From NCBI GenBank assembly GCA_024707075.1, contig JANQAK010000004.1:62001-126000 (forward strand): 64,000 nucleotides of DNA, read 5' to 3'. The notes beneath the pieces are model-generated. The model was not told where the DNA came from. It did no database searches and worked only from the letters and a program-made list of their open reading frames with translations. Of the stretch, positions 12,403 to 58,621 are shown one piece after another. The DNA comes from Afipia sp. (GTDB lineage: Bacteria; Pseudomonadota; Alphaproteobacteria; Rhizobiales; Xanthobacteraceae). Every line of letters begins with the position of its first letter. Position 1 is the stretch's first letter. The position numbers and the translations under genes were made by a program.

Positions 12403-12457
12403 TTTTGCAGGTTAGGTGGCGGTCAGTTGTCTTTTAACTGTGCGTTAGTGATTGCGG
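12403..12457 (+). promoter_or_regulatory. Shared fibre-operon regulatory module, copy 1 (TpsB operon)
   Basis: A 55-bp element, TTTTGCAGGTTAGG followed by GTCAGTTGTCTTTTAACTG and CGTTAGTGATTGCGG, lies upstream of tpsB. Two other copies precede the curlin operon (56785) and the csgF-like gene (63532), with no gaps in the alignment: 49 of 55 and 43 of 55 bases match by hand count. It contains the inverted repeat CAGTT-N7-AACTG and a CGTT (12443-12446) that resembles ECF sigma -10 elements. TTGTCTT-N4-CTGTGCG within it also loosely resembles a Pho box. The function is inferred from recurrence. Confidence 0.75.
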
Positions 12458-12505
12458 CGTGCCGCAGCGCTGACGCTTGGCTTGTTTGGAGTCGTCGGGG
12501 TACTC

Positions 12506-14302
12506 GTGCGAATTCGTCGTATAGAAATCACGTGCAGATGGCGATGGGCGAGGAGGGGATTGCTTTGCTTGGGCGTATCGATGGCCGCACTTGTCGGCGG
12601 CGTTGGCATCTCACAGCCTGTCTCGGCGGCAAACGCCAGTAATTCAGTGGTCTCTACCAAGCCGGCGGTGACCGCGACCGGGAAAGTGGAGCGAGGGCAG
12701 GCAGAAGAAGGGAAGGAGGGGCAAGGGAGAGTTGCCTCACCTGCCGGCGCGGTGCGACCGTCGGTGTCGCCTCAAAAGTTCGAGATCGATGATTTCGCCA
12801 TCGAGGGCGGAAATAGCCTGTCTCAGATCGAGATCGAAGAAGCGGTCTATCCGTTCCTGGGACCGAACAAAACGGTCGAGGATGTCGAAAAGGCGCGGGC
12901 CGCGCTGGAGAAAGCATATCACGACAAGGGATTTCAGACCGTCAGTGTCTCTATCCCGGAGCAGAACTCCCAGCGCAAAGTCATTACGCTGAAGGTTGTC
13001 GAACTCAAGGTCGGGCGTCTACGAGTTAAGAATTCGCGCTATTTCGACCTTGAGAGGATTAAGACCCGTGCCGAATCCCTGAAAGAGGGTGTCGTTCCCA
13101 ACTTCAATGACGTAACGAAGGACATTGTTGCGCTCAACCAATGGCCGGATCGTCGTGTGACACCGGCGCTTCGCGCGGGGGTAACCCCCGGTACGGTGGA
13201 TGTCGATCTCAATGTCGAGGACACCGCACCGATCCATGCCAGCGTCGAATACAACAATCGTCAATCGCCGAGTACGACGGCGACGCGGTTTATCGGGACG
13301 GTGCGCTACGATAATCTCTGGCAGCTTGGGCATTCGGCAAGTTTCATCTATCAGGTGGCGCCCGAGCGCCCTGATGATGCCAAGGTGTTTTCGGGCTCGT
13401 ACCTAGCGCGCATTCCAGGTGTGGAATGGCTCAGCTTCCTCACCTATGGCGTGAAATCGAGCAGTAGTGTTGCGACGGTCGGCGGCGCCAATATTGTCGG
13501 TCCGGGTGAGATTGTCGGCAGTCGCGCCATCATCACATTGCCGCCGCGGGACAGGTTCTTTCACTCCCTGTCGGTTGGTCTTGACTACAAGCACTTCCAG
13601 CAGACCGTGACGCTAGGATCCGGTGGGTTCTCCTCACCCGTGACCTACTACCCCCTCTTGGCAAGCTACGGTTCGACTTTCCAGGGTGAAAAGTTCACGA
13701 CGCAGTTCAATGCCTCGATCACCTACAACATGCGGCCAATCAGCAGTGACTGGGAGGCCTTCGATGCGAAACGATACTATGCGTCGGCAAGTTTCACCCA
13801 CTTCAACGCCGATGTGTCCCATACCCAGGAACTGCCGGAGGGCTTCCAATTGTGGGGCAAGGTTCAGGGGCAGATCGCCGATGGGCCGCTCGTCTCGAGC
13901 GAGCAGTTTAGCGCCGGCGGCTTTGACACCGTCCGCGGATATCTCGAATCCGAGGTGCTTGGCGACAACGGCGTGGCTGGCAATATCGAGCTGCGCAGCC
14001 CCAATATAGGCCAATTGTTGCAAAGCCATGTAAAGGACGAGACCGGGCTGGGGGCGCCGCGCTTCACGACCTTCAACGACTGGCGGTTCTTTGCCTTCGC
14101 CGATGGCGCGCGTGCGGAGACGTTGAAACCATTGCCGGACCAGCAGTCGCACTTCAACCTGTGGAGCTACGGCGTCGGCACGCGCTTCAAGTTGTTCAAT
14201 TACGTCAATGGCGTCGTCGCCTATTCTGTGCCGATGGTCACGCAAGCGTACACGCGCGCCAACGATCCGCGTTTCAATTTCCGCATTTGGGGTGAATTCT
14301 GA
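12506..14302 (+). CDS. TpsB outer-membrane transporter of a two-partner secretion system (ShlB/FhaC family, PdtB-like)
   Basis: A TpsB protein of about 598 residues. The frame is open from a TTG at 12452, but that lies on the putative transcription start. The GTG at 12506 gives a basic N-region, a hydrophobic core (LLCLGVSMAALVGGVGI) and a QPVSAANA cleavage site. Then come a POTRA domain (FEIDDFAIEGGNSLSQIEIE onward), a second POTRA region (VVELKVGRLRV) and a barrel from about residue 210 (ASVEYNNRQSPSTTATR) ending in FNFRIWGEF with the terminal phenylalanine of outer-membrane barrels. It would export the giant TpsA encoded from 23234. Its stop overlaps the next start. Confidence 0.9.
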   Translation: MRIRRIEITCRWRWARRGLLCLGVSMAALVGGVGISQPVSAANASNSVVSTKPAVTATGKVERGQAEEGKEGQGRVASPAGAVRPSVSPQKFEIDDFAIEGGNSLSQIEIEEAVYPFLGPNKTVEDVEKARAALEKAYHDKGFQTVSVSIPEQNSQRKVITLKVVELKVGRLRVKNSRYFDLERIKTRAESLKEGVVPNFNDVTKDIVALNQWPDRRVTPALRAGVTPGTVDVDLNVEDTAPIHASVEYNNRQSPSTTATRFIGTVRYDNLWQLGHSASFIYQVAPERPDDAKVFSGSYLARIPGVEWLSFLTYGVKSSSSVATVGGANIVGPGEIVGSRAIITLPPRDRFFHSLSVGLDYKHFQQTVTLGSGGFSSPVTYYPLLASYGSTFQGEKFTTQFNASITYNMRPISSDWEAFDAKRYYASASFTHFNADVSHTQELPEGFQLWGKVQGQIADGPLVSSEQFSAGGFDTVRGYLESEVLGDNGVAGNIELRSPNIGQLLQSHVKDETGLGAPRFTTFNDWRFFAFADGARAETLKPLPDQQSHFNLWSYGVGTRFKLFNYVNGVVAYSVPMVTQAYTRANDPRFNFRIWGEF

Positions 14303-16335
14303 TGACAACGAAGCTGGGTCGGTGCCGGGGTGAGATGCGTCCGCGTAAACCAGGTTTTATTCGGCGGGCGACCGCAAGGGGCATCGCCGCGATGTTGTTC
14401 GGGCTTGTTGGCGCGCTGACATTGTCGTCACCGGCGAAAGCGTGGTGGAACGATGAATGGTCGATGCGCAAGAAGATTACCATCGACGCCAGCGCGTCGG
14501 GCGCCAACATCACCGATCCGATCGGGACTACACCTGTTTTGATCCGGCTGCATGCGGGTAACTTCCGTTTCGCCTCGGCGAAGGATGACGGCAGTGATCT
14601 TCGCTTCGTGGCCGGCGACGACAAGACGCCGCTCAAGCACCACATTGAGAAGTATGATCCGCTGCTGGCCGAGGGCCTGATGTGGGTCTCGGTGCCAAAT
14701 GTACAGGCGGGTGCCAAGATCGAGATCTGGCTCTACTCTGGTAACAAGAAGGCGGCTTCAACGAGCGACGCCAAAGGTACCTATGATCCAGACACGCTGC
14801 TGATCTATCACTTCAACCAGCGCGGCACCCCCTCGCTGGATTCTTCGGTATGGGCCAATAACGCGCAGAGCGTGGGGCAGCCTGCAGACGGGTCGATCAT
14901 CGGCACGGGTCTTCGTTCGACGGGGGCTGCGCCGCTTGCACTGCCGGCGTCGCCGTCGCTGGTACTGCCTTCGGGCAGTCCCTTCACCTTCTCGGCCTGG
15001 ATCAAACCGGCTGTGTTGCAGCCGAATACGGCACTTTACAGTCGCCGTGATCCAGGCGCCGGCAATGCGCTCGTGATCGGACTTGATAGCGGCGTGCCGT
15101 TCGTCGAGGTAACCAATGCCGGCACCGTTCAGCGTAGCGGCGCGGGCGCGCCGGTTGCGCCGAACAGCTGGCATCATCTCGCGGTCATTGCCAGCAACGG
15201 TCAAGTCACGCTGTCCCTTGACGGAGCGCCTTACGCGTCGGTGGCGGCATCGCTACCGGCCCTGAATACGATTTCCCTGATCGGGGGCGACACCGCGACC
15301 TCCGGTGCCGCGCCCGTGGCGGTGCCGTCCGCAACCGAGCAGCCCGATACCCCAGCTGCGCAGGGGGCGGACGGCAGCGCGGCGCCTGCGGCAGATGTGC
15401 CTGCGACCACTATCGTTCCAGGTATGGCAGGCTTCATCGGCGATCTCGACGAACTGCATATCGACAAGGTGGCGCGGCCGGCAGGCTTTATCAGGTTCGC
15501 TGCTATCGGGCAGGGGCCGGAAACGGCCAAGCTGATTGCCTTTAGTGGTGATGAAGAGACCGCAAGCTGGCTCTCCGGCTACTTCGCGGTGATCCTCAAG
15601 TCGGTGACCCTCGACGGCTGGATCGTGATTGGCATTCTTGTCATCATGGCGGTGTTGAGTTGGGTCGTGATGTATGACCGCACCACCTATCTCGGCAAGC
15701 AGGCTAAAGCCAACGCTGTGTTCATGAAGCACTTCCGTGAAGTTGCAGACGATCTGACGGTGCTTGATCAGGCGGACGACAAGAGTGCGGCGACGCTGGG
15801 CGGCCGTCTGAACGCGAACGACGCTGAGACGATGAAGTTGTCTTCACTATATCGCATTTATCACATCGGTGCGCAGGAGCTTCGTCATCGTTTTGCCCGC
15901 AGCGGGGTCCGTGCGCGGTTCCTATCGGCTGCCTCGATTGCCGCGATTCGGGCTTCGCTCGACAGCGGCGTGGTCAAGGAGATCCAGCGGCTCAATCGGC
16001 AGATGGTGGTGCTGACGATTGCCATTTCCGGCGGTCCGTTCCTTGGCCTGCTTGGCACTGTGGTCGGCGTCATGATCACTTTTGCTGCGATCGCAGAATC
16101 TGGTGACGTCAACGTCAATGCGATCGCGCCCGGCATCGCGGCGGCGCTGGTGGCAACGGTCGCGGGTCTCGGCGTCGCGATCCCGGCGCTATTTGGCTAC
16201 AACTACCTGATTTCCCGCATCAAGGAATTGACCAACGACATCCAGGTGTTCGTCGATGAGTTCGTCACCAGAATGGCGGAAGCCTATGATGCCGAGCGCC
16301 CCGATCCGATCGATCACCGCATGGCGGCGGAGTAA
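14302..16335 (+). CDS. exbB: DUF2341-LamG-ExbB/TolQ fusion: proton-channel subunit with a large periplasmic domain
   Basis: A 677-residue fusion, start overlapping the tpsB stop by one base. After a signal-like N-terminus (GIAAMLFGLVGALTLSSPAKA) comes a DUF2341 domain (WWNDEWSMRKKITID onward), then a concanavalin/LamG-like fold (LIYHFNQRGTPSLDSS, SPFTFSAWIKP, NSWHHLAVIAS). The C-terminal ~250 residues are ExbB/TolQ, with membrane segments VTLDGWIVIGILVIMAVLSW, ISGGPFLGLLGTVVGVMITF and IAAALVATVAGLGVAIPALF. It should form the proton-motive-force motor with ExbD and TonB. The periplasmic lectin-like domain could sense or hold a carbohydrate or the exoprotein; that is speculative. Confidence 0.9.
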   Translation: MTTKLGRCRGEMRPRKPGFIRRATARGIAAMLFGLVGALTLSSPAKAWWNDEWSMRKKITIDASASGANITDPIGTTPVLIRLHAGNFRFASAKDDGSDLRFVAGDDKTPLKHHIEKYDPLLAEGLMWVSVPNVQAGAKIEIWLYSGNKKAASTSDAKGTYDPDTLLIYHFNQRGTPSLDSSVWANNAQSVGQPADGSIIGTGLRSTGAAPLALPASPSLVLPSGSPFTFSAWIKPAVLQPNTALYSRRDPGAGNALVIGLDSGVPFVEVTNAGTVQRSGAGAPVAPNSWHHLAVIASNGQVTLSLDGAPYASVAASLPALNTISLIGGDTATSGAAPVAVPSATEQPDTPAAQGADGSAAPAADVPATTIVPGMAGFIGDLDELHIDKVARPAGFIRFAAIGQGPETAKLIAFSGDEETASWLSGYFAVILKSVTLDGWIVIGILVIMAVLSWVVMYDRTTYLGKQAKANAVFMKHFREVADDLTVLDQADDKSAATLGGRLNANDAETMKLSSLYRIYHIGAQELRHRFARSGVRARFLSAASIAAIRASLDSGVVKEIQRLNRQMVVLTIAISGGPFLGLLGTVVGVMITFAAIAESGDVNVNAIAPGIAAALVATVAGLGVAIPALFGYNYLISRIKELTNDIQVFVDEFVTRMAEAYDAERPDPIDHRMAAE

Positions 16336-23233: not shown

Positions 23234-26200
23234 ATGTCCGTCCGCCGCTCCCATCGTCGTCACCGGAAGCACAACCGCAGCAATGAAAGCAGTGGAGTGA
23301 GCGCGGTGCGGAGCGGGGGATATTTCAGGCTGTCGCGCAGCGCGCTGCTTGCCAGCGCAAGCATCATGGTTCTGACGCTGGCATCACCGGCGCGCGCGGT
23401 GCCGATCGGGCAAGGCTCGGGATCAGCAGCATCGCCACTATCTGCCGCGACCTACGCGGCACAGCAGGCACAGCAGCAAGCACAACGGGCAGCAGAGCAG
23501 GCGCAGCGCGCGATGTCGCGGGCACGAAATATTCTGCAGGACATGCAGTCGGCACAGGTAGCAGCGCGTGCGGCTGCGCAGCAGGCCACGTCAGTGGTGC
23601 CCAATGGTTTGACTGCGGGAGGTCTCGTGGCCAATCCCGATCCGGCCTTCAAATGGACCGGCGCCAACGGGCCGACACAGACGACATCCGGGGATCGGAC
23701 CATCGTCACCATCCAGCAGACCGAGCAGAAGGCGATCGCCAACTGGACGAGCTTCAACGTCGGAGCGAAGACGACGGTCAATTTCGATCAGCAGGACGCA
23801 AGCTGGAGCATCCTCAATCGCGTGCAGGATCCGAGCCTCGCGCCAAGCAGTATCCTCGGGACCATCAACGCCAAGGGTACTGTCTACGTCATCAACCAAA
23901 GCGGCATCATTTTCGGCGGCACAAGCCAGATCAATGTCGGATCCTTGGTGGCCTCATCGCTCTGGCTCAACCAAAGCCTTTATGCGAATGGAATTCTAAA
24001 CAACTCCACTGGAGAGTTCCAGTTCTCAGCTTTGCCGACCATTAAACCTCCGACCGATCCACTCGACACGGCGCCGTCTGTCGGCGCGGTCGGCGAGGTC
24101 GTCGTCGAAAAAGGCGCGTTCCTAAACGCCGCTACCTCGGGCGCGCACCAGGGCGGGCGCATCATGCTACTCGGTCCCAACGTCAGGAACGAAGGCGTGA
24201 TCTCGACGCCGGACGGCCAGACCATTCTCGCAGCGGGCCTTCAGGTCGCGATCCGTGCGCATGACGCCAGTGATCCTAGCTTGCGCGGTCTCGATGTTTT
24301 CGTCGGCAAGGTTAGCGATCCTTCGCTTGGCGTTGTTGATACTGCAGGGAGCAGCCTGGCGGCGCGCGGTGTCATATGGAACGGCGGCTTAATTACCGCC
24401 CCGCTTGGCAACATCAGCCTAAACGGCGCGGCCATATATCAGGATGGAGTGACGCTGGCTACCACCTCGGTCGCGCTCAACGGACGGATCGATATCAACG
24501 CGGCCTACGACGCCGCCATCTTCTATGGGTTGCCGGGCGGGGCGTCGTTAAAGGACATCTATCCCGAAGGATTATACTTGGCACCGCGCAAAACAGGCTT
24601 GGTTGAATTCGGGTCGCGGAGCCTGACCTCGGTCCTGCCGGAGATCGACAGCACAGAAACTGTACAGCTTTCCTCACTTCAACAGAAATCCCAGATCAAT
24701 GTGCTGGGAAGCGCAATCCATCTCAAAAACGGGACGGACACCGGCGGAACATTAGTGGGAGCAACGATTCTCGCGCCGTCCGGCAAAGTTAGTATGAGTG
24801 CCGGCGAATTCCTCGATCTCGGTGATGCAGATATTGCAGATGAATATCGCACAACCAGGCTGCCCGGGATATCGCAGTTCTTTACGCCCTCCGGCAAGAA
24901 TGGCGTTCTCCATCAAATCTATCTTGACTCCGGTGCGCTGATCGACGTCTCCGGCCTGGTGAACGTCCCGGAATCGGTCGCCAACACCGTGATCCAGGCG
25001 GAGCTGCGCGCGGCTCAACTCGCCGACTCGCCGTTACAGCGCGATGGCGCACTGCGCGGCGCCACCGTCTGGGTGGATCTGCTGCAAAGCGGCGTCTTCA
25101 ACGGCAAGAGCTACATCGGCACACCGTTTGCCGACATTGCCGGCTTTATCGATCTCGTCCCGCACACAGTGGCGCAGCTCTCAGTCAACGGCGGCTCCGT
25201 GAACCTGAACGCGGGCGATGCTGTGGTGGTGCGCGATGGCGCCCGCATCAGTGTGGCGGGCGGGTCGATCGCCTATCAAGGCGGATATGTTCACGAGCAG
25301 TCGCAGCTCCTTCTGCAGGACGGCGGCTACGTGGCGCTGTCTCAAGCAACCCCTGATCGTGTCTATACTGGATTGGCTGGCGGATTCACGCGCAGTCACT
25401 CGCGCTGGGGGAGGACGGAAACATATTCGAGTTCGCTGCGCCCGACGATGCAATATCGCGACGGCTTCATGAAGGGCGGCGACGGCGGAACGCTTTCGAT
25501 TATGGCGCCAGCGATGGTACTCGATGGTGCGCTCAATGGCGCCGTCTTGACTGGTCCCTATCAGTTGACGGCGGCTTCGGCTCCGAAGCCTTCGACGCTG
25601 AATCTCTTGTTGGGCAGTATAGCCGATTTCGAAGCAGGCAACGCCAAGCCATTTTTCACATCGAGCGCCGCTAACGCTCAGACGTTCAACGGAGTGTCGT
25701 TCGGCGTTGGCCCCGACATTATTCTGGGCGCGGCGCGCGCATCCGGCGGACCCGTCCCTACTGAGTTCTCCCAGCCTTTGGCCGCCGCAGACAACGCCAC
25801 ACTCAAGATTGATGCGTCTGTTTTCGGCGTCGACGGTTTCGGAATCGCTAATATCGACAATCAGAGTGGCCGGGTTTTGGTGCCCGCCGGAGTCAACCTC
25901 GGTTATGCCATCTCACCCTTGTCGGGACTCAGCATCACGGCGCGCGGTATCGACGTTCAGGGCGACATCACCTATCATGGGGGACAGGTTGTCCTGACGG
26001 GATCGTTGCTTCCGCTGGACTATCTGACGACGACACCGCCTTCCGTAACCAATCCTATTCGGTTCGAAGATCTGCCCTCCATCGTGGTATCGGGCCGCAT
26101 TGATGTGTCGGGTGCCGTCATCGACGCCGCACAGGCTGCAGCATCTCCACGGATCACTGCGGGGGGGGCGATCAATATCTCTGCAGGAGGAATAGGGATT

Positions 26201-27325
26201 GGGAGCCTCGGTTCTCACGTGCCACCGACGTCTTTTGCCTACCCAATGGGTATCGGTGGGAGCGTCTTGATTCGGGAAGGCAGCGTTCTCGACGTTTCAG
26301 GCGGCGTTCTCGTCAGCAGTTCGAGCAAAATTTCCTACGGTAATGCCGGAGCAATCAGCCTCCTCGGATTGGCTCCCTCTACCTTTAATGCGTTGATTGA
26401 AACGGCGCCGTGGATAGCAACCGGGGGCGGAACTGGCTCCTATCGAACAACGTTGCTTACCTCCGGTGAGTTGAGGGGGTTTTCCGGCGCAGCAGGCGGA
26501 TCGCTCGCGCTCCAGGGCAGGGCCTTCCAGATTGGTGGCGCGGCTGCCGAAGACGTGACTGTGATCTCGCCGGACTTCTTCGATCGAGGGGGCTTCAGCC
26601 GCTTCGCACTGACCGGGTACTCTGCGCTCGGCCCCGATGGAGTCACAGTTGTTCCCGGTATACATCTGGTCGCAGGGATAAAGATCGAGCCCAAGGTGCA
26701 GAAGGTCGCGGCATCTTTCAGCGGCTCGCATGAAATAGGGCTGTCGCCTTATCTGCCCGTGGATGAGCTCCGCGATCCGGTGTCACTGACGCTGAGGGCA
26801 ATCAACAACAGTTCCGCGCGTGGCGACATCCTCATAGGGGAAGGCGCTGCAATCTCGCTCAAGCCGGGTCGCACCGCCAATACGATCAAGGGCTCCTCCA
26901 TCGCCATCAGTGGTTCCACGGTCACCGTGCTTGGAACGCTGACTGCGCCCGGAGGGAAAATCTCGATTGCCGCGGGATCGACGGCAAAGATTAACGAGAG
27001 CGGCGAGACCCTTACGCATACGCTGCACCTGGGCGCCAACAGCAGCCTGAATGTGGCTGGCGCCACCGTGCTGATTCCGGATGCGCGCGGATTGCGCACT
27101 GGCGCGGTGCTTGCTGGTGGCAGTATCACGCTTCAGGGTGACATTGTTGCCGAGAAGGGCAGCACTCTCGATGTTTCCGGTACCCGTGGTGTTCTCGACC
27201 TCCCGTCGAGTGCTGGAAGCGGACTATCTGCTAAATCCGTGGCGACGTGGATAGAGAGCGATGGTGGCTTGTTGTCGATCATAAGCTCGGGATTGCTGGT
27301 CGTCGAGATCTACGCTCCGCGGTAA
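23234..27325 (+). pseudogene. Giant filamentous-haemagglutinin-type exoprotein (TpsA, PdtA-like), N-terminal part before frameshift 1
   Basis: The first 1,363 residues of a TpsA. An extended basic signal peptide (start MSVRRSHRRHRKHNRSN, core ALLASASIMVLTLASPARA) is followed by a Gln/Ala coiled segment. The TPS secretion domain is at ~120-260, with IANWTSFNVGAKTTVNFDQ and the NQSGIIFGG motif that takes the place of NPNGI. Beta-helical repeats follow. Near 27303-27325 coding moves to the +1 frame (GLLVVE then STLRGNAGG), so this part ends at a premature TAA. TpsA would be exported by the TpsB at 12506 to the cell surface. Confidence 0.88.
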
Positions 27326-27335
27326 TGCCGGCGGC

Positions 27336-30300
27336 GTGAACGCTGCGGGTGGCGTGCTTTCCGTATCATCATCGGTAAATTTTGGAGATAGCCGCATAGG
27401 GCCGTCCTCCTTCGTCCCCTCCCTCATCGTCACTCAGGACGATCAGCAACTGCTCAACGGAATCACGTTCGCACCCGGAAATGCGACAGTACGGACCGCG
27501 CTGCCGGGCAGCATATGGTGCGCCGTCGGCTGCCCGGACAGTGTCGTGTCCCGCGGGCATTTCTCCATCGACCGGTTCGCCAGCGGTGGCTTCGACACCC
27601 TGCGCTTGAACAGCGACGGCGGCGCAGGTGCCGTGCTGTTTCGAGGCGATGTCACGATTGACGCCCGTCGGAGCCTGATGGTGAGCCAGCTGGGCAACGC
27701 GATTTATGCTGACGGCGCGGTGACGTTGAGGGCGCCTTACGTCGCGCTCGGCAGCTCTTATCGGCCTTTCGCTCCAAGTGATGCTGCCTTCCTGCTGCCC
27801 AACCTCGACGCTGGCATTTTGGGTGCGATTCCGGCACATCAATTCGGCCCCGGCAGCCTGAGCGTCATCGCCCAGAAGCTGATCGACATCGGCAATCTGG
27901 CGCTGGAGAATATATCCACAACCTCGTTCGACGTCAGGGACGGAGACCTGCGCGGGTTCGGCGTCCTCGATGCCGCAGGGAGCGTGGTGATCGCGGCGGG
28001 GCAAGTCTACGCGCCAACCGACGCGCGGTTGCAGATCATCGTCAATCCTTCGAACGCCGACGAAGGCCGCTTGACGATCAGCGGCGGTGCATCGCGGCCA
28101 ACGCCGCTGTCCGTCAATGGCGGGATCGAGCTTTACGCCCGTACGATTGACATCTCGGGCACCGTACGCGCGCCGTTCGGCACCATCAATGTCGGTTTCG
28201 ATCCCGCGGAGCCAGCGCCTAAGGATCCCATCACCGGAGCGGATATTCCGGGTGTAAATACCCTGACGCTGGCGGACGGCAGCCTGCTTTCGGTGTCAGC
28301 GGATGGCTTGGTGATGCCTTACGGGGGTCTGGGTAAGGACGGCTCATGGATCCCGCCTTTCGCTCCCATCTCTCCGGTGCCGCCGATCAACACCTCGGGC
28401 GCACCGGAAAAGGTCGTCAGCCTTCTCGCCGACAAGATCAACTCGAAGTCCGGTGCCAGGATTGATATCGCCGGCGGTGGGGACCTCTACGCCTATCAAT
28501 GGACGCAAGGCAATGGCGGCTCGACCGACATCCTAGCCAAATCGGACGCCTACGCGGTGATCCCGGGTTACGGCTTCGACTATGCGCCGCACTATTCCAA
28601 CTCCGCCTCGGGCTATGTCAATGCGGGACTCGGCGTCGGCAGCCAGATCTATCTGGCTGCCGGCGCAGGCCTTGCTGCGGGCACCTATACGCTGCTGCCG
28701 GCGCGCTATGCGCTTCTCCCAGGCGCGTATCTCGTGACGCCAAGCTCCAGTTCGGCGACAGGCACCGTTTCCATAACGCGGCCCGACGGCTCAGCGATGG
28801 TCGCGGGCTATTTCAGCAATGCGCTGGACGGCAAGGCGCTGGGCGCGATCATGCCGAAGTACTTCGAGGTGGCGCCGGGCACCGTGGTGCATGCCCGCGC
28901 ACAATATGATGATTTCCGTGCCAACACCTTCCTGGCCGACGCTGCGGCCAAGGCCGGCATAACTCCGCAGCGCCTGCCGATGGATGGCGGCCGTTTGCTG
29001 ATCGCGGCGGCCACCGAGCTGCTGCTCCACGGCAGGGTACAGTCGGCAGGTGCGTCGGCTGCCGCACTCGGCGGGTTCGTTGATATCGGAAGTTCCAATC
29101 CGAATGGCATCGCCATCCTTGGCGGTACCGCCGAGCGGAGCCTTTATACCGGCTGGGTGACGATCGAAGCCGCCGATCTCGGCGCGTTTGGCGCGAGCAG
29201 CCTGCTCGTCGGTGGCCACCGGGACGGCACCGGTAACATCACGGTGACGAGCGCCAATCTCATCCTCGACAATCGGGAAGAAGCCCTCTTCGGGCAAGAC
29301 GTTGTTCTCGTCTCGCGCGGGGCTCTGACACTGAAGGACGGTGCGCGGATCGAGGCTCGCGGCGCTGCGACGGGCGGGGCCGGCCAGCCCTTGAGCATCG
29401 GTCGCGACGCGGTGGCGGGGAGCGGCAATGGCTCAGCCGTTCGCGTCAGCACTTCGGCTGACGCGCGGCTGACGCGATTTGGCTATGATAGCTCCACCAC
29501 GCCAACGCTGTTGGTTGGCCGCAATGTGCAGCTGATCGGCCGCGACGGACAGGGGCAGCCGAGTGCGGCTGGCTCGGTGATCTTGAATTCCACGGGCAAT
29601 ACGGTGATTGATCCGTCCGTCGTGATCAAGACACGCAGCCTGCAGGAGGCGGGCCAGCAAGTCACGCTAGCGCTCGACGGCAGCTACACGCTTCCCTCCA
29701 ATCCCGGCATCGTCCTCACCGGGCAGGCGCTCAGCCAGTTGCTGACGGAGGCCGAGCGCGTGATACTGACATCCTACCGGACGCTCGATATCTACGGCCA
29801 TGGCGAATTCGGCACCGTAGGGCAGGGCAAGCTCGCCTTCGAGGCCGCGCAGATTCGCGGCTTCAACACCGGCGCTGAGGGCGTGACTTTTGCCGCTGAC
29901 ACGGTGAGCCTCGGCAATCGCGAGCGCGGGATTGCTGCGTCAGCTGATCAGGCAGGAGCAAGTGGTGCGTTTCGCCTGAACGCCAACACTATCGAGCTCG
30001 GGGCTGGCGCGCTGGCGATCGACCAGTTCACGGGCGTGAAGCTTGATGCGGCGCGTGGAGTCCTGACCTCTGGGGCGGGCGGGCTTTCTCTCGGCAGTGA
30101 TCTTGTCGTGGATACACCGCTCGTTACCGCAGCCAAGGGTGTGGATTACACGATTTCGGCCAATGGCCGGGCGATCTTCAACAGCACACTAGGGCAGACC
30201 GCTACGGTCGAGGGTGGTCTCGCCGCCAAGCTCACAGTGCTCGCGACTACGATAGAAGCCACGGGCGCAACCTTCCGGCTGCCGAGCGGTCGTCTCAGCC

Positions 30301-33221
30301 TGCACGCGCTCGATGGCGACATCGCTCTCACGGACACCGTTCTCGATGCGTCGGGAACGGAGCAGGTGTTCTTCGATGTGATCCGCTACTCCGGTGGTGG
30401 CGGCGTAGCGCTGACCTCGGATGCAGGTTCGGTTCGCCTGACGGGTGGTAAAGTTTCGGTGGCGGCGCCGCAAGTGGGTGGCGATGGCGGGGAGTTCGAT
30501 GTCGACGTCAGGAACGGCGAGTTCATCGTCAGCGGAACGAGCCTCGAAGGTGGCGGTGGGGCCAAGGGCGTGGGCGGGCGTTTCAAGCTCGACACGAAGC
30601 GCCTCGTCGGCACTGCCGCGCTTGATGCCATGTTGGATCGGGGTAGCTTCTCGACCTTGCGCAACGTTCGGGTGCGCAGCGGCGATGTCATGCTCGACGG
30701 GCTCGCCACCGCTAAATCCTACTCGCTCTCGGCGGATGCCGGGGCCATCACGGCGACGGCCCACGGACAGATCCGTGCCGGCGGACCAACGGGAGGCACG
30801 ATCTATCTCGCGGCGTCGGACGATATTACACTACAAAGCGGCTCCTTGCTCGACGTCTCGGCCGATGCGTTCGACAATGCGGGCAAGGGCGGTACAATCT
30901 GGCTCGAAACCCGTGGCGAGGGAGCTAACGGGATCGACATCCAGACTGGATCGCGCCTTGATCTTGCCGTCGCGGGCGGCCCGGGCGGCGTCCTCCATCT
31001 GCGTGCGCCTCGCACTGACGCGGCAGACGGTGCCGTAACCACCTCTGGCGCCGGCACATCGATAAAGATCCAGCCGGTGAACGGCACGGTGTCGAACGCC
31101 TCCTCAATCGTGGCCGAGGGATTCAAGGTCTATGCGCGTGCCAATGGCGCAATTGACGGCGTCGTTCAGGCGTTGGCAGACAACGACGCGAAGGCCTATC
31201 TCGGCGCCGCCGGAAGCGACGCCAATACGACAGCGATCAAGACCCGGCTGTTCGGCTCGCAGCCAGCTCTCGCTGCCATCGCCCAGATCACACCCGGCGT
31301 AGAGATCCAGAATGGCGACCGCAGCGCCGTCGCCTTCAAATTGAACGGCGCGGGCAGCCTGATTTCCTTCGACGGGGGTACGACCGCGACCGTCGTCGCG
31401 GGAACCGGAGCTCTGACTGTCTCAACCGCCGGCTACTGGATCGACGCAGCCACAGGGAAGCGGACGAGCTTTGCCGCCGGAGCTACTCTGACGGGTCTTT
31501 CCGCTAACGCCAAGATCATCACCGTGGGGGCAGGAACTCTGACAGCTGGCGGATCGGTGAGCCTTTCGGTTCCCGGCAATATCAATCTGACCGGGCTGAA
31601 GAACGCTGATATCACGCCAGTTGCGGGCGGCGTCGTCCTGTCGTTGGCCTCGACTGCAGATGCGACAGCCAACACCATCACCCTGCCGGCGGCCACGCCG
31701 TTCACGCTTCCATTTGGAACCTCAGGTGTTCCAATCAAATCATCTGCGGCAGGCTCCTACAAGCTGCCCAGCGGAGTCACCACCAATTTTCTCGCTAACG
31801 CAAATCTAAATAGTTTGGTTCCCGGAACCATCGTTACACTCAATGCGCCAGGCACTTTGACACAGCAATTCACAGTCAGCAACGGAGCGACGGCGATCAC
31901 GCTGCCCGCCGACACGACGGTGAGCAACGTCACGCTCACGCTGAGCCAAACCAGCGGCGCGAATGTCGCGGTGCTTTCGAGCGGCAGCCTGGCGCTGGGC
32001 AGCGCCGCGAGCACAACGACATCCGACTGGAATCTCTCGACCTGGCGTTATGGTCCTGACCGCGTGCCGGGCACGCTCACTTTACGCGCTACCGGTAATA
32101 TCGAATTCTACAATACACTGACCGATGGATTCACCAGCACCGGCGTCACCTATCCGAGTGCTGTATTGCCCGGAGCAGCGTACGCATCCGCCACAAGTCG
32201 TCTACATTGGGGCGCTATGCTGGATCTGCTGATGCCAGCAGGCTCGGCCTCCTGGTCCTATCGTGTTATCGCGGGCGCTGATCTCTCGGCAGCCGACTAC
32301 CGAGAGCGCCTGCCTCTGGCGGAGCTTGGGACCACAACCGGTTCGATAACGCTCGGCAAGAACGGTGCGGATTACAACGGTTTTGCTTCCTATGCGCCAA
32401 AATCGGCAACTGCAAGTGTGTCTAACGACCGGGTGCCGTACTATAGCTCGACAAATTTCTTCCAGGTAATCCGCACTGGGACCGGCGATATCGATCTCCT
32501 TGCAGGTCAGGATATCCGGCTCATCAACCCGTTCGCCGCGATCTACACCGCTGGCAGCCGGATCGTTCCCGATCCAGCCATCTTCGATGCACCGACCACA
32601 ACATATCAGGCCTTCAATACAGCCTCCTACAATCTTGGTTATGCATTCCCCAAGCTCGTAACTTATCCAGCTCAATATAGTGATCATGGCGGCAACGTCA
32701 CGCTGGTAGCGGGGAATGACATCCGCAGGTTGACCGGCTACGGCGCGGTCGGGAGCCGGACGTTCGTCGACGCGTCCAGCCTGGAATTACCAAACAACTG
32801 GCTCTATCGGCGCGGCTATATCGACCCGGCGAACGGCATGTTCGATATGGCGACCCCGTTCACGGATGGCTTGGGTAAGCCGACCGATAAAGCATCGACC
32901 ACATGGTGGGTCGATTTCAGCAACTTCTTCCAAGGTGTCGGAACACTGGGCGGCGGCAACGTGAGACTCCAGGCCGGCCAAGACATCGTCAACGTTGACG
33001 CCGTCGCGCCGACTAATGCTTGGACTCCAAAGAACGTGCTGGCCGCGACGGCGCCGCTCACGGAATATGGTGGCGGCGATGTTTCCGTGATCGCAAGCCG
33101 TGATATCAGCGGCGGCGTCTACTACGTCGAAAAGGGCAAAGCGATCCTGGATGCCGGCGGCGGCATCCATTCCAATCCTGCGCGGAACACCGTAGATGCC
33201 CTAGCGTGGGGTCGGGCTTGA
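27336..33221 (+). pseudogene. Giant exoprotein TpsA, central part between two frameshifts
   Basis: About 1,960 residues of beta-helix repeat sequence. It continues the first part at the +1 frame (GNAGGVNAAGGVLSVSSSVN). Blocks such as GTINVGFDPAEPAPKDP and DLLAGQDIRLINPFAAIYTA, typical of large filamentous-haemagglutinin-family adhesins, recur. A Thr/Ala/Ser-rich stretch at about residues 1340-1570 is lower in complexity. There is no start signal here; the frame is only a continuation. The coding frame returns to the original one near 33190-33221 (PSVGSGLKISAAGVV), so the two breaks compensate each other. Confidence 0.85.
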
Positions 33222-35545
33222 AGATTTCGGCGGCGGGCGTCGTTGTCAGCGAGTTCACGAGAAATCTCATTCTCGATCCGGACTCCTGGCTGCCCACGAC
33301 CCTGTTCCTTGGGAAAGGCGATATCGAGATATCCGCGGCGGGCGACATTCTGGTCGGGCCAATTCTCAACCCGTTTGCTTTGCCGCAAGGGATACTCAAT
33401 AACTTGGCCCAGAAGACGTATTTCAGCACTTACGCGCCTACAAACAAGGTCATGGCGACCTCCCTCTCAGGGGATATCACCCTGTCGAACAAAAAAGGTC
33501 GCGACACGGTCGGCTCGCTTGCTAGTTACTACGAGCAGATGTTCGCTGTGCACAGCCTGTCTCCTTTGGCGTCGAGGCGTGGGTGGCTCCGTCTCGGGGA
33601 GGTGACATCTTTCGCGGGCCAGGACGTGTTCAGCCAAGTCTATCTGACCAAGCCGTCGACACTTCAGCTTGCAGCACTGTCGGGTGACGTATCTATTATT
33701 GGACCGCTGCTGCTCTCGCCGTCGCCAACCGGCACTCTCGATCTGCTGGCCTCTGGGAATATAAGTGGCTACAATTTAATAACGGACACAACTGGCTCCA
33801 GCATTTCCAAGTATGGCGTCGAAGCGCAGGTCACTCTTTCCGACGCAGACTACCTTCGCATTGCAAGCCCGCTGTCACCTCGGGCCACTTCTGGGGCGGG
33901 CAGAGTCATCGCAAGCCCGTCTTCATCCGCCGATGGGCTGTCTATCTCGGGTGCCACAAATCAAACCCTTGCCGACAAGCTTGCTGCGCACGGCAAGCTG
34001 ACACATCGGGATGATTGGGAGCCGGTTCGCCTCTATGCACGCGGTGGTGATATCACCGGTCTGCAAGTGATCTCGCCCAAGCAAACCCGCCTGATCGCCG
34101 GACGCGACATTTCGGACATTGCCCTCTATTTGCAGAACCTGCATGAGACGGACATCAGCATCGTGTCTGCTGGTCGCGATATCGTTGGCTATGCGCCGAA
34201 CTCGCTCGCGCGGCTGGCATCGTTGCCACTCGTTACTGTGATCTCCCCCTGGACAACTGTTGTCCAGATGGATTCGCCGCAGGCTGGTGATATCCAGCTC
34301 GGCGGGCCAGGCAGCCTTCACCTGCTGGCGGGACGCAATATCGATCTCGGCGTGGACGCTCGTGCCGGGACCGCGACTGCGCCTCAGAATGGAACCGCAA
34401 CCGGCATTGTCACGATCGGCAATCAGTCCAACCCGTTCCTGCCGTTATCGGGCGCCTCCATCACCATGGCGGCCGGTCTTGGTACAATGGCGAAAGATAT
34501 CGGCGGACCTGGCCTCGACTACGGCGCCTTCGAGCGAGATTTCCTCGATCCTGCGACAGCGGGTGACAGGGCGGACCGCCTGCTGTCGAAGCTTGGCAAG
34601 GCGCTCAATTTGTCGGACACCTCGCCCGCGACGGTGTACGCAGCGTACAAGGCTGCAGACGAGAACAAGAAGCGTAAATGGGCGCTCGAAGCCTTCTTTA
34701 TCGCACTCGATCAGTCCGGTCGGGACCATAACGATCCGGACGCGATCCATAGGACTTATGAGGACGGCTTTGCCGCTATTGCCGCGCTGTTCCCGGCCAA
34801 CGACGAGGCGAGAGGCAGCATCCTGCTCACATCGCGCCAGATCAAGACAGCGCGGGGTGGCGACATCAATATGCTAGTGCCCCACGGTGGAGTCGAGGTT
34901 GGCTTTACCTTGGTCGGGTCGCAGCCGCAGGAGCAAGGCATCCTTACCGAAGGTGGCGGCGACATCCGCATCTTCGCCGACGGCAGCATCCTGCTCGGCA
35001 CCTCTCGCATCTTCACCCTGCGCGGCGGCAATATCCTGATCTGGTCGAGCTTCGGGGACATCGCCGCCGGCGCGGCCTCCAAGACCGTCAAGGCGGCACC
35101 TCCGACCCGCGTGCGAATCGATCCCGATACCGGGATTGTCGAGAACGATCTCGCGGGCCTTTCCACCGGTGGCGGCATCGGTACTCTGGCTGTATTCCCC
35201 GACGCACCACCAAGCTGGATCAATCTCATCGCACCCAACGGTGCGGTGGATGCGGGCGATGCGGGCATCCGCGCGTTCGACATCAATCTCGCCGCGCGCC
35301 TCGTGCTGAACGCCGCCAACATCCAAGTGCAAGGCAACTCGACGGGAATCCCGACGGTGCAAGCGCCGCCTGTGGCCGCGCTCACGTCAGCCTCAAACGT
35401 CGGAGCCTCCACGCAGCAGTTAGCGCCGCAGCAGCCGAGCAACAACGGACAAGCCTCGGTCATGATCGTCGAGATTGTCGGCTATGGGGGATCGCAAGGC
35501 TCGGATCAGGACAATAACGACGAGCGGAAGCGTAATGCCCCATAA
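33206..35545 (+). pseudogene. Giant exoprotein TpsA, C-terminal part after frameshift 2
   Basis: The last 779 residues, in the same frame as the first part. It has features of the C-terminal region of large FHA-family proteins (DUF3739-like): GDITGLQVISPKQTRLIAGR, DISIVSAGRDIVGYAPNSLA, GGPGSLHLLAGRNIDLGVDA and a late ARGGDINMLVPHGGVEVGF. It ends in a Gln/Asn-rich tail. With the frames rejoined the protein is about 4,100 residues, close to what I recall for P. aeruginosa PdtA. The next gene starts inside its last codons. Confidence 0.85.
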
Positions 35546-39321: not shown

Positions 39322-40080
39322 GTGAAGGACACGCCTTTGAACGCGGAAGTAATGGCGGCGAAATCGCCTACTAAGTCGCACCTGACAGCCTTAGTTATGA
39401 TCACGCTGTTGCTGATTCCGGCGCTCGTTTTTTCTGCGGGTGCCATCGAATTGAATTCTAGGTTGCCGCTGCAGCCTTTGGCGTTCGATATCCCCGCCCA
39501 GCCTCTTGCGGCGGCCTTGCACGCCTACAGTCGAAAAGTTGGTGTTCAGGTGCTTTACGACAGTCGCTCGGCTTCGGGCCAACAGTCTGTTGCAATCCAA
39601 GGATACTTTGCTCCAGATGAAGCGTTGATACGTCTTCTCGGCAACACTGATCTAGATGTGCGGCGTGCTAGGACGGATGCAATTACGCTGGTCGCGCCGG
39701 CAGTCATCGAGCATGGGCTTCCGCCGGTCAATCCGCTGACCGACGCCGATCTTGTACTCGGCGAATTGCGTGTTCGGGCGAATGTTCGGCCAAACGATCT
39801 TGAGAAATTTGCCGACTATAGCGAGACTGTCCGCTCCGAAGTCCAGCGAGCTTTGCTTAAGAATCCGCAAAGTGCAACGGGTAATTATCGAGCTGTTCTT
39901 GACTTGTGGATCGATCCCACGCGCACTATCCGCAAGGCCGCGCTCCTGCAATCGACCGGAGATGCTGTGCGCGATTCCGCTATCACAGGCACGCTACAAG
40001 GTTTGCTGATCCGCCAGCCGACGCCCGCTGATGCTCCCCAACCCATTCGCGCCGTCGTCGCTGTGAGCACGGCGAAATGA
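39322..40080 (+). CDS. STN-domain signalling protein without a barrel (VreA-like)
   Basis: 252 residues from GTG 39322 (ATG 39352 is an alternative). Signal segment LTALVMITLLLIPALVFSAG is followed by an STN domain at ~50-115: LQPLAFDIPAQPLAAALHAY, KVGVQVLYDSRSASGQQSVA, DEALIRLLGNTDLDVRRART. The C-terminal ~75 residues (VQRALLKNPQSATGNYRAVL, LDLWIDPTRTIRKAALLQST, PADAPQPI) resemble TonB-C. There is no TonB-dependent barrel, as in VreA of the Pseudomonas PUMA3 system. It would signal to the FecR-type anti-sigma at 41751. It overlaps the next gene. Confidence 0.82.
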   Translation: MKDTPLNAEVMAAKSPTKSHLTALVMITLLLIPALVFSAGAIELNSRLPLQPLAFDIPAQPLAAALHAYSRKVGVQVLYDSRSASGQQSVAIQGYFAPDEALIRLLGNTDLDVRRARTDAITLVAPAVIEHGLPPVNPLTDADLVLGELRVRANVRPNDLEKFADYSETVRSEVQRALLKNPQSATGNYRAVLDLWIDPTRTIRKAALLQSTGDAVRDSAITGTLQGLLIRQPTPADAPQPIRAVVAVSTAK

Positions 40081-40757
40081 GGCCGCTTGCTACCGACGAT
40101 AGCGCAGACCTAACGCCAGCCTCGACGTTCGCGCGGCTGATATTGTTTCCCGCGTTCGTTGGTATTCTCTTTATTGGCGGCGTCGCCTGGTTGCGGCTCG
40201 AACTCGCTGCGGCAGGCGGCACGCCTGAACAGATCCCGCTGGTGCAGGTCCATCTCATGCCGCGCCTGGACTCGCTGTCTATTCCAGTCGATTCAGAACA
40301 GCAATCGCTTGCGATTGCGACGCCAAGCCCCGTGCGTGGAATAACCGAAGCACCATCCTCTATATCCGACCGAACGCTGACAAGGTTTCCGGCAGAGGAA
40401 TCCGCACCGCCCTCCGATCCGCCGATGCCGTCAGCGGGTCTGAAGGATATCCCGGATCCCATACAGGATGATGCGAAGACAACGTTCCGGACAGAACTTG
40501 CGCGCCACATTGCGCGGTTCCAGCGGTATCCAAAGGGGGCTGAACGGCAACATCTACAAGGGACGGTCCGGGCCGTGTTCTCAATCAACCGTGCCGGCAA
40601 GCTGCTTGGCGTACGGGTCAAAGGTAGCTCCGGTCAGTCTGTGCTGGACCATGCTGCCCTTGAAACCATCCGCCGAGCCCAGCCGCTGCCCCGGATCCCT
40701 CCGGCCTTGTCGGATACGTTGAACGTAGAAGTGACGCTCGGATTTGACCCGTCCTGA
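40077..40757 (+). CDS. tonB: TonB-family energy transducer of the signalling module
   Basis: 226 residues; ATG 40077 overlaps the upstream stop. N-terminal membrane helix (ARLILFPAFVGILFIGGVAW), a Pro/Ser-rich linker and a C-terminal TonB domain with FRTELARHIARFQRYPKGAE, AVFSINRAGKLLGVRVKGSS and VLDHAALETIRRAQPLPRIP. It is distinct from the TonB at 17531, which has the PPPKDMP ending. It probably works with the STN protein in transmitting or energising the surface signal. Confidence 0.85.
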   Translation: MRPLATDDSADLTPASTFARLILFPAFVGILFIGGVAWLRLELAAAGGTPEQIPLVQVHLMPRLDSLSIPVDSEQQSLAIATPSPVRGITEAPSSISDRTLTRFPAEESAPPSDPPMPSAGLKDIPDPIQDDAKTTFRTELARHIARFQRYPKGAERQHLQGTVRAVFSINRAGKLLGVRVKGSSGQSVLDHAALETIRRAQPLPRIPPALSDTLNVEVTLGFDPS

Positions 40758-40908: not shown

Positions 40909-41451
40909 TTGGCAGAGTCCAATCAGACTAGGCTGAAGCGGCAGCTCGCTGAAAATTACGACACCTTGGTCAAGCACCTCACAGGGCAATTGGGGTCTTC
41001 CGAGTTCGCTTATGAGGTGCTGCACGAAACATTCGTGCGCCTTGATCGCGTTCCAGATGCGACACTCGTCGAAAAGCCCGCCGATTACGTCTTTCGCACC
41101 GCCATCAACGTTGCCAAGAACCTTCGAAAAGCGCGGACCTATCGTGTCCCTGCCTCCGAGATCGACGCGCTGCTCGAGGTAACCGACAACAGGCCAAGTC
41201 CGGCCCAGATCGCCGAGGAGCGGTCCGACTTCGAAGCCTTCGAGCGTGCGCTCCGCGAGCTTCCCGAACGCCCGCACCATGTGCTCCGTATGATGTCGCT
41301 CGAAGGCAAGACCGCCGAAGAAACGGCTGAGGCGCTCGGCGTCAGCGTGCGCACCGTTTCCTCAGACTACCAACACGCCTTGCAGCATTGTGCCAAGAGC
41401 ATCGACCGCCGCATTTCTCCCCGCCTAGGCGGTCCGAGGCGGCGGACCTGA
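40909..41451 (+). CDS. ECF sigma factor, FecI/VreI-like
   Basis: 180 residues from TTG 40909 with AGGGGG upstream. Region 2 includes YDTLVKHLTGQLGSSEFAYE, VLHETFVRLDRV and PADYVFRTAINVAKNLRKA; region 4 has ALRELPERPHHVLRMMSLEG and the helix-turn-helix KTAEETAEALGVSVRTVSSD. It is an iron-starvation-type (FecI) ECF sigma factor. Its Pho box suggests induction in phosphate starvation. The FecR-type regulator at 41751 is its probable anti-sigma partner. It may read the module shared by the TPS and curli operons (hypothesis). Confidence 0.88.
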   Translation: MAESNQTRLKRQLAENYDTLVKHLTGQLGSSEFAYEVLHETFVRLDRVPDATLVEKPADYVFRTAINVAKNLRKARTYRVPASEIDALLEVTDNRPSPAQIAEERSDFEAFERALRELPERPHHVLRMMSLEGKTAEETAEALGVSVRTVSSDYQHALQHCAKSIDRRISPRLGGPRRRT

Positions 41452-41524: not shown

Positions 41525-41546
41525 ATCCGCCTTTCGGATTCTTTTT
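41525..41546 (+). terminator. Intrinsic terminator after the sigma-factor gene
   Basis: ATCCG at 41525-41529 pairs with CGGAT at 41535-41539 around a short loop, followed by TCTTTTT. The hairpin plus U-tract lies 73 bases after the sigma stop, in the ~300-base gap before the anti-sigma gene. That gap otherwise holds no gene. The anti-sigma may therefore have its own promoter or rely on readthrough. Confidence 0.65.
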
Positions 41547-41750
41547 CATGATAGACCCTTCCCAGTTGTCTAAGAAAGAAAGGAGATAGTTGTTTGGTTC
41601 GGTTGGAGGAAAGCGGCCGTCCCAAAGAGGTTGGGAAGGCAATGGGTTTGCGCGCCAATGGCCCGGGTTGACGAGAATCATATATACCGAGGCGCCTTCG
41701 GCCGCGAAGGGATGTGTCGTCGGCTCTTGCGCGAATAGTGAGCGATCGCA

Positions 41751-42728
41751 GTGACCCTCCCTCCCGAAACACCAGGGCCGGACCCGCTACTTGACGAGGC
41801 GATCGTCTGGATCGTGCGGCTCAAGACCGAAGAGATTACACGCGCCGATATCGATGACTTTCAGCGCTGGCGAGCGCGGAGCGCAGCGCACGAAGCCGCC
41901 TTCCAGCGAGCAGCCCTTATCAATTGGCGGGCAGGCGTGGTCGCGGGCAAACTCACCGCGCCGTCGGCGCGTGTCGCCGGCATTGCGACAAGCCGCGGCC
42001 GCCTCAGCCGGCGCGCCCTAATCGGCGGCGGTCTTGCCGCCGCTGCCGTGGCCGGATACGCTGTCATCAGGCCTCCCTTCAACCTGTGGCCGTCATTGCA
42101 GGAATTGTCGGCTGACTACCGCACGGCAAAGGGGGAGCAACGCACGGTCAATGTCACCCCGGAAGTCTCGTTCGACCTCAACACACTGACCAGCATCGCC
42201 CTTCGCTCGAAGCAAAATCAGCCGACGATCGAGTTGCTGTCCGGCGAGGTCGTCGTCAGCACCCGCCGTCCGCCGCAAGGCGACTTGATCGTACTCGCTG
42301 CCGGTGGGCAAATCATCGCGAGCGAAGCGCGCTTCAGCGCACGCTGCCTTGATGACGTCGTCTCTGTTGTTTGCCTGAATGGTATCGTTAGTGTGCAGCA
42401 GGCTGGACAATCCACGCGCATCGTTGAGGGAGAACAGGTTTCCTATACAGGTAGTGGCCTCGGTGCCCGCGTGAGCGTCGATCCCGTGCAAGTGACTTCA
42501 TGGCAAACCGGCTTGCTGATCTTTCGTGATCGACCGTTAGCCAGCGTGGTCGAGGAGATCAATCGATATCGCCCTGGCAAGATAGTCGTCGTCAGCGCCG
42601 CGTTGCGGCAACGTATCGTTAACGGCGACTTCGAGATTGCCAAGCTCGACACGTTCATCACCCAAGTGCAGCAGCTGACGGGGGCCCGCGCCACCGAATT
42701 GCCAGGCGGGCTGGTTCTCCTGAGTTGA
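41751..42728 (+). CDS. FecR/VreR-type anti-sigma regulator
   Basis: 325 residues from GTG 41751. The N-terminal cytoplasmic domain has the DUF4880/FecR signature: DEAIVWIVRLKTEEITRADI, DFQRWRARSAAHEAAFQRA. A twin-Arg-like segment and membrane helix (RRALIGGGLAAAAVAGYAVI, ~88-106) precede a periplasmic FecR domain (YRTAKGEQRTVNVTPEVSFD, LLSGEVVVSTRRP) and a C-terminal STN-like part (SWQTGLLIFRDRPLASVVEE, INRYRPGKIVVV). It should sequester the sigma factor at 40909 and receive the signal from the STN protein. In VreR, release requires proteolysis. Confidence 0.9.
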   Translation: MTLPPETPGPDPLLDEAIVWIVRLKTEEITRADIDDFQRWRARSAAHEAAFQRAALINWRAGVVAGKLTAPSARVAGIATSRGRLSRRALIGGGLAAAAVAGYAVIRPPFNLWPSLQELSADYRTAKGEQRTVNVTPEVSFDLNTLTSIALRSKQNQPTIELLSGEVVVSTRRPPQGDLIVLAAGGQIIASEARFSARCLDDVVSVVCLNGIVSVQQAGQSTRIVEGEQVSYTGSGLGARVSVDPVQVTSWQTGLLIFRDRPLASVVEEINRYRPGKIVVVSAALRQRIVNGDFEIAKLDTFITQVQQLTGARATELPGGLVLLS

Positions 42729-56784: not shown

Positions 56785-56839
56785 TTTTGCAGGTTGGGCC
56801 CCGGCCAGTTGTCTTTTAACTGTTCGTTAGTGATTGCGG
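56785..56839 (+). promoter_or_regulatory. Shared fibre-operon regulatory module, copy 2 (curlin operon)
   Basis: TTTTGCAGGTTGGG, then GGCCAGTTGTCTTTTAACTG and CGTTAGTGATTGCGG. It matches copy 1 at 49 of 55 positions with no gaps, and clear similarity to copy 1 continues for about 60 more bases (to ~56905). The inverted repeat CAGTT-N7-AACTG and the CGTT (56825-56828) are kept. It lies ~360 bases before the first curlin start. Confidence 0.75.
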
Positions 56840-57197
56840 AGTTCCGCGGCACTGACTCTTGAACTGTTTGAGGGCGAGTGGGGTATTTGTCACAAATCGT
56901 TGGGTCGGCATTGCGATGTCACGCGCGAGGGATGGTTCTCGGGTCTGAAGCTGTTTGGACTGACGCGTCTGCTTCCTTTTGCCGGCGCTCGCGTAACGCT
57001 TCGGCGTCGAGCACTTCGCGGTGCGAAGAGTCGCCAACCAGAACGGCAGCGCCCCTATCATCAAGCAGCAATGGCGAATTTGGCCGCGGCGCAGCCCCCG
57101 CTCCTCGGAGCGACTAGCCTTGGCGAGGGGCGGCGGAATTCCGCCATCACGATCATCGTTCAATGTCTGAATCATGACTTTTAAGGGAGTTGTCACC
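56840..57197 (+). other. Long leader of the curlin operon
   Basis: A 358-base stretch between the shared module and the first curlin start. Its first ~65 bases are homologous to the region 12458-12520 before and inside the tpsB frame. A frame open from TTG 56834 to 57184 begins MRSSAALTLELFEG, close to MRRAAALTLGLFGV at 12452. The rest of that frame looks non-coding. The region may be a regulated 5' leader. Confidence 0.4.
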
Positions 57198-58528: not shown

Positions 58529-58553
58529 GCCTCAGGCATGCGGCGAGGAATCT

Positions 58554-58579: not shown

Positions 58580-58621
58580 GTGCGATAGCGTTTTAGCTAG
58601 TATCTTTTTGAGATTATCATC

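Follow-up and report, generated by a model that had tools for sequence, protein, structure and literature searches.

A two-box promoter predicted for a VreI-like sigma factor precedes giant-adhesin and curli genes on one ICE-like element of Afipia

In a 64,000-nt stretch of an Afipia sp. genome (hereafter the window), the operon for a giant two-partner-secretion (TPS) adhesin, the curlin operon and csgF are each preceded by a copy of one short module. Our main reading, to which we assign a probability of roughly 0.8, is that this module is a bipartite promoter used by the VreI/FecI-like sigma factor encoded at 40909, that it drives seven targets on one element, and that the curli copies came about when the tpsB promoter was duplicated along with its leader. 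Direct comparison of sequences establishes the family of sites with its register and conservation, and also shows that it is restricted to the element and that the leaders are alike. The copies in the window are as follows.

12403..12433, + strand: copy 1, predicted sigma promoter of the TpsB operon (-35 TTTTGCAGGTT at 12403-12413, -10 TGTCTT at 12428-12433)
56785..56815, + strand: copy 2, predicted sigma promoter of the curlin operon (-35 at 56785-56795, -10 at 56810-56815)
63532..63562, + strand: copy 3, predicted sigma promoter of csgF-csgG (-35 at 63532-63542, -10 at 63557-63562)
41542..41572, + strand: sister site before the anti-sigma gene (-35 TTTTTCATGAT, -10 TGTCTA)

The original prediction described the module as three 55-bp repeats, and its counts were reproduced: ungapped identity is 49/55 between copies 1 and 2 and 43/55 between copies 1 and 3, to which we add 42/55 for copies 2 and 3. 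The best remaining 55-mer on either strand of the window reaches only 32/55, and TTTGCAGGTT-N10-CAGTTGTCTT occurs exactly three times, always on the + strand. Allowing up to three mismatches, the 5.3-Mb genome holds one additional copy (copy 4), 5 kb past the window at C3:130618, which precedes a LysR gene. Among 29 genomes of the genus, one besides this one (G006) carries the same four copies and a TpsB 99.5% identical to that of the window; the remaining 27 contain no copy with two or fewer mismatches. The identical places and letters point to Afipia massiliensis DSM 17498 as the identity of G006.

The genes next to the three copies are those originally named, with ShlB/POTRA and TPS domains behind copy 1, Curlin_rpt in five ORFs behind copy 2 and CsgF (E 4.7e-31) behind copy 3:

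12452..14302, + strand: TpsB (ShlB/POTRA) ORF, true start probably at about 12532
14302..16335, + strand: ExbB/TolQ-type protein with DUF2341 and laminin-G-like domains
23234..35545, + strand: giant TPS exoprotein region of three ORFs (23234-27325, TPS domain; 27336-33221; 33206-35545, DUF3739)
57174..62281, + strand: five ORFs with Curlin_rpt, of which the first two overlap; the likely first start is GTG 57198
63648..64000, + strand: csgF, running on outside the window, with csgG next at L005:1274-2356

Curlin-repeat subunits, CsgF and CsgG together make up a curli (type VIII secretion) system. The cargo lies between conjugation genes (relaxase-like DUF3363, T4SS coupling protein, TrbI, CagX, TrbL, TrbE-like and T2SSE), as expected of an ICE. 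On its 5' side (window 5696-12386) are a signal peptidase, a transglycosylase, the relaxase-like DUF3363 gene, the coupling protein and an RHH gene, with a Strawberry-notch helicase and a Toprim gene still further upstream (L125:12658-18176); the TrbI, CagX, TrbL, TrbE-like and T2SSE genes are on the 3' side (L005:7006-16037). Separate pieces of a P-type ATPase, probably a decayed gene, occupy L005:3617-5316 between csgG and the LysR gene. At 49753-53212 of the window, genes for an MbnB/TglH/ChrH-type RiPP enzyme, DUF2063, DoxX and NrsF are grouped, and they resemble the RpoE7 target genes named in the excerpt of PMC6180224. No Rfam element was found in the window at gathering thresholds. A search of a plasmid collection with copy 1 and its flanks gave nothing, and we rejected spread on plasmids on this ground.

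The nature of the module becomes apparent from other species. Among 391 genomes of the family, nine have a match with up to three mismatches, this genome and G006 included. Six of the others belong to one large-genome genus, with boxes TTTGC[AG]GGTT and CAGTCGTCTT-like, and the ninth, G268, is weak and of different make-up; the two family sites whose surroundings were read completely are flanked by a FecR gene on one side and a TpsB gene on the other. An exact scan with TTTGCRGGTTN9YCARWYGTCTY over 84,980 genomes, one per species, returned 33 matches, 25 of which precede TpsB. Three more are the curlin, csgF and LysR sites of A. massiliensis, and five are in unrelated taxa, about the level of chance (seven or so by a hand estimate). 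TpsB homology begins 48-356 nt downstream of the 25 TpsB-linked sites, and a FecR gene ends 81-267 nt upstream in 20 of them; for three of the remaining five, the available upstream DNA was too short for a FecR call. In the 23 distinct TpsB promoters of other species, information is confined to two blocks, TTTTGCGGGTT and CGTCTT, with 11 invariant columns; the letters invariant across species are TTGC.GGTT and GTCT. The sequence between the boxes drifts at a constant length of 14 nt from GGTT to YGTC, and the FecR sites described below keep the same register.

Two boxes at a fixed distance are what an ECF sigma promoter has, and they differ from sigma-70 hexamers. The conserved unit as delineated by these alignments is TTTTGCAGGTT (-35) and TGTCTT (-10) in fixed register with a gap of 14 nt, and the module is very probably a promoter, specifically the predicted promoter of Pdt-like TpsB operons. 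Its -35 element is without the AA usual for ECF promoters; the -35 of sigma-VreI promoters is likewise reported without it. The two-box sites in fixed register support the promoter that the giant-adhesin, curlin and csgF genes were predicted to share. Its -10 was originally placed elsewhere, at CGTT, 16 bases after a GGTCAG-type box. This assignment had to be given up: CGTT falls in the leader, is absent there from copies 4-6 and most relatives, and is not among the letters invariant across species.

A different kind of regulation was considered at this point. The Pho box consensus is CTGTCAT-N4-CTGTCAT, and TTGTCTT-N4-CTGT of copies 1 and 2, which was originally called loosely Pho-box-like, could make the module an operator for PhoB or another activator or two-component regulator in front of ordinary promoters. 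Precedent exists in the Pseudomonas pdtA promoter, which needs PhoB and a pho box according to the excerpt of PMC4971064. However, the promoters agree with the consensus at only 7-10 of 14 positions, and the best match at every promoter was reached by two or more of 40 shuffles, as was also the case for the DNA before the VreA-like gene. Hence no box of this consensus stands above chance, though a degenerate one may be present; the Pho box was rejected. Moreover, copy 4 is without the second half of the direct repeat, and the single box-to-box length in the TpsB set is promoter-like. We regard the operator explanation as improbable, and retain the reading of the module as a sigma-dependent promoter.

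To describe the regulon in this genome, we used two models, R1, made from the TpsB promoters of other species, and R3, made from nine FecR, TpsB and LysR sites of dw_411, Rhodoblastus, G324 and G032 and containing no Afipia letters; 150 candidates were scored per genome. With R1 the best site of the genome is that of curlin (33.6 bits), followed by TpsB (32.2), LysR (26.6) and csgF (22.2). Two further copies come after these: copy 5 at C3:51832-51802 (21.2 bits) and copy 6, which is weak, at C3:53492-53468 (15.1 bits, E 0.117). Among the 150 of 619 candidates scored with R3, the top seven in 5.3 Mb are curlin (28.4), TpsB (26.2), csgF (24.2), the FecR sister site of the window (22.5-22.6), LysR (20.8), copy 6 (19.6) and copy 5 (16.9 bits, E 0.038), and the next reaches 12.4 bits (E 1.06) on another contig. 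R1 also gave a 17.6-bit match in A. massiliensis on another contig, off the element, which R3 did not list. Copies 5 and 6 each point towards a small ORF that follows them, one of 64 aa and one of about 80 aa or longer; the two ORFs scanned at these copies had no Pfam match.

All seven sites are inside 79 kb of the ICE-like region. The three originally reported copies are real, but they understate the set, which extends to the LysR gene and two small ORFs outside the window and to the anti-sigma gene within it. The search of the genome and its relatives that had been proposed as a check shows the confinement of the sites; the fibre operons are not their only bearers.

The candidate for the sigma factor that reads these sites is encoded together with its signalling partners:

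39322..40080, + strand: VreA-like protein with an STN domain and a TonB_2-like C-terminal domain
40077..40757, + strand: TonB-like protein
40909..41451, + strand: VreI/FecI-like ECF sigma factor, proposed reader of the sites
41751..42728, + strand: FecR/VreR-like anti-sigma factor

The VreA-like receptor (252 aa) matches STN with E 8e-8 and TonB_2 with E 2e-4 at 21.7 bits, slightly below the 22-bit cut-off, and so combines STN with a TolA/TonB-like C-terminal domain and no barrel, as does the PUMA3 receptor. As in PUMA3, the ECF sigma gene is followed by a FecR-like anti-sigma gene and is linked to TPS-ExbB genes. These VreAIR-like genes (window 39322-42728) stand behind the TPS cluster in the window, dw_411, Rhodoblastus and G032, and before TpsB in the Bradyrhizobium types.

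The gap between the sigma and FecR genes is filled by a second conserved site in the same register. Bradyrhizobium types have it as TGCGGGATAG...CGTCTA; the window, dw_411 and Rhodoblastus have it as TTTCATGATAG...TGTCTA. A FecR-type model of 14 such gap sites, all from other species, gives the sister site of the window 25.0 bits and the three fibre copies 7.5-12.8 bits. Immediately before GTCT, the TpsB and FecR sites carry one and the same base in each of the 18 genomes compared (T/T in five, C/C in 13; the FecR letters of this table were entered by hand, and L096 was dropped as its sigma match was below threshold), an agreement that connects the module with the 40909 sigma. Residue 71, within the aligned sigma-2 region, is N in all five T-type proteins and D in all 16 C-type proteins; it is one of 16 aligned columns that separate the two types. 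At a guess, residue 71 touches the -10 box, and in the 40909-41451 sigma it is a candidate specificity residue. Since the covariation sets one clade against the rest, it perhaps reflects one or two events.

The sites could also be promoters of another ECF sigma factor of the cell, for instance a second FecI-like factor or EcfG. The genome has seven FecR-domain genes, so that another FecI/FecR pair could read the sites, and CGTT resembles the -10 of the general stress sigma EcfG, which in the excerpt of PMC8103513 is CGTT with AAC at -35. Nevertheless, the sites have no AAC at -35 and do not conserve CGTT, and, of the 18 genomes outside Afipia in which a strong site is present, 17 encode their closest counterpart of the 40909 sigma beside that site and TpsB; in the 18th the two genes are on separate contigs. 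In G032, the sigma is 66% identical, the -35 has drifted and the R1 score is poor. The sister site, furthermore, is located inside the operon of the 40909 sigma itself. We regard another cell sigma as about as improbable as an operator. The case for the 40909 sigma as the reader is strong but indirect: the synteny with TpsB in relatives and the shared -10 box of the gap site both favor the VreI-like factor that the original prediction had put forward.

Similarity among copies 1-3 continues downstream of the -10 box into the leader of tpsB:

12434..12550, + strand: tpsB 5' leader with hairpin; alignment to relatives suggests GTG 12532 as the likely start
56816..56930, + strand: tpsB-type leader behind copy 2, hairpin retained, tpsB start codon gone
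63563..63690, + strand: tpsB-type leader behind copy 3

The leaders of copies 1 and 2 align with a local score of 85, compared with a mean of 23 and a maximum of 38 in 200 shuffles. The continuation of these two copies past the core was thus seen correctly, but it extends about 115 nt past the -10, not about 60. Copies 1 and 3 (55), copy 2 and dw_411 (52) and copy 3 and dw_411 (55) also score above all 200 shuffles, and copies 2 and 3 score within them (29, maximum 34). The start region of the dw_411 TpsB aligns with GTG 63648, the first codon of the csgF ORF. Behind the -10, copies 4-6 align with no other copy beyond shuffles and share the core alone; upstream of the -35, there is no similarity among copies except for a weak match between 2 and 3. 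In a tree of promoter and leader, copies 1-3 group with the TpsB promoters that G023-type genomes have on the ICE type (L023, L024; support 0.99); the tree does not settle the branching order of the three. As the leader similarity reaches the tpsB start region, duplication of promoter and leader is the simplest account, and the curlin and csgF copies are probably such duplications.

The leader hairpin (12434-12490, 56816-56870) is alike in shape in relatives and differs in letters, with modest statistical support. It is predicted in most of them, with single z-scores from -3.0 to +0.4, and its consensus has 10 pairs, three of them changed on both sides; the tpsB leader hairpin is likely to be real.

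The copying of the leader along with the promoter, and the position of every copy within the same 79 kb, would also fit remnants of a small repeat or of cargo that was duplicated, with no regulatory role at curli. Against this, both boxes persist on either side of a drifting gap, no site in the genome scores higher than the curlin copy, and relatives have a single site, before TpsB. We hold such remnants to be similarly improbable, and return to the 40909-sigma promoter as the preferred reading.

Of 43 other family genomes with TpsB that were searched with R1, 18 have a match with E < 0.01, one apiece and always at TpsB. As 16 of the 18 were in the training set of R1, these strong matches are there by construction, and the informative part of the search is that the 18 genomes have no second R1 site at E < 0.01. 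Similarly, the 23 named non-Afipia genomes, which overlap the 43, have exactly one such match each. R3 finds three sites in Bradyrhizobium sp. dw_411 (TpsB, FecR and the orthologous LysR), two in Rhodoblastus, two in G032 and three in G324 plus one at noise level. In dw_411, TraG and an RHH gene are immediately 5' of TpsB, as in the window, LysR comes immediately after FecR, and the 39.9 kb that were read hold no curli genes. From the sites at TpsB, FecR and LysR in relatives and the dw_411 stretch, the reconstructed ancestral set is the anti-sigma gene and TpsB, joined on the ICE type by LysR (one relative), and curli is a putative Afipia addition. None of the 26 non-Afipia loci among the 28 CsgG loci of the family matches more than 16 of 20 motif letters within the stored flanks of at most 1.5 kb, and seven longer curli regions of the family reach at most 10.4 bits; a site at other curli loci was rejected accordingly.

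These findings fit the following scheme. The STN-domain protein and the FecR-like anti-sigma factor would release the 40909 sigma, which would then start the anti-sigma gene itself in a feedback, the TpsB/ExbB/giant-adhesin operon, curlin and csgF-csgG, as well as the LysR gene and the two small ORFs, all seven targets being part of a single ICE-like element. Duplication of the tpsB promoter and leader would have given the curlin and csgF copies. With TpsB-promoter copies before the curli genes, a common regulation of adhesin and curli has good support from the sequence, and both surface systems are probably switched on together. In this scheme the sigma that reads the sites, the inducing signal and the actual co-expression are what we infer.

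It is also reasonably likely, with less assurance than the main reading, that the mobile element has a sigma regulon to itself, made up of the VreI-like ECF factor that it encodes and seven cognate promoters with no counterpart above noise in the rest of the genome, and that curli were recruited into this regulon by duplication of the tpsB promoter, leader and start region, so that adhesin and amyloid fibre would form one switchable program traveling as a unit. For the VreI-like sigma factors of Bradyrhizobium-type bacteria, the sites at TpsB and the anti-sigma gene supply a concrete candidate promoter sequence, and they make the growth of a regulon traceable, with promoter and leader duplicated before new cargo on a mobile element. 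The seven predicted promoters over a clean background make the regulon testable. The statement that no link of a Pdt-like system and curli had been described agrees with the open-licence literature, where we found no paper on curli with an ECF sigma factor and two-partner secretion, nor one on Afipia massiliensis with curli. Among the papers listed in that literature for an ICE with curli and csgG or for pairings of curli, VreI, PUMA3 and FecR, none was on point.

Among known systems, curli (csg) systems have CsgD-type control. The present genes resemble them in curlin repeats, CsgF and CsgG, and differ from other curli in the ECF-type site at the operons, none being seen at the 26 other family CsgG loci. 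With Sinorhizobium meliloti RpoE4 (ECF26), the sites share a CGTC-type -10 (CAGTCGTCTC / CTCGTCTC); RpoE4 promoters have TCGTCTC at -10 in the table of PMC6180224. However, the RpoE4 -35 is GGAAT in that excerpt and the -35 here is TTGCRGGTT or TGCGGGAT, and RpoE4 belongs to a separate sigma group. The closest likeness is to PUMA3 (VreA-VreI-VreR) and PdtA-PdtB of Pseudomonas aeruginosa, with an STN and TolA/TonB-like receptor, an ECF sigma and a FecR-like anti-sigma factor (excerpts of PMC2729926 and PMC4971064), and with signaling genes beside a TPS-ExbB-PpiC gene set (PMC2729926). The vreAIR genes are described as one operon, whereas the anti-sigma gene here has its own site. Also unlike PUMA3, no pho box above chance, by the CTGTCAT-N4-CTGTCAT consensus, is present upstream of the -35 or before the vreA-like gene. 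Finally, curlin, csgFG and LysR carry sites here, and the genes reside on an ICE-like element.
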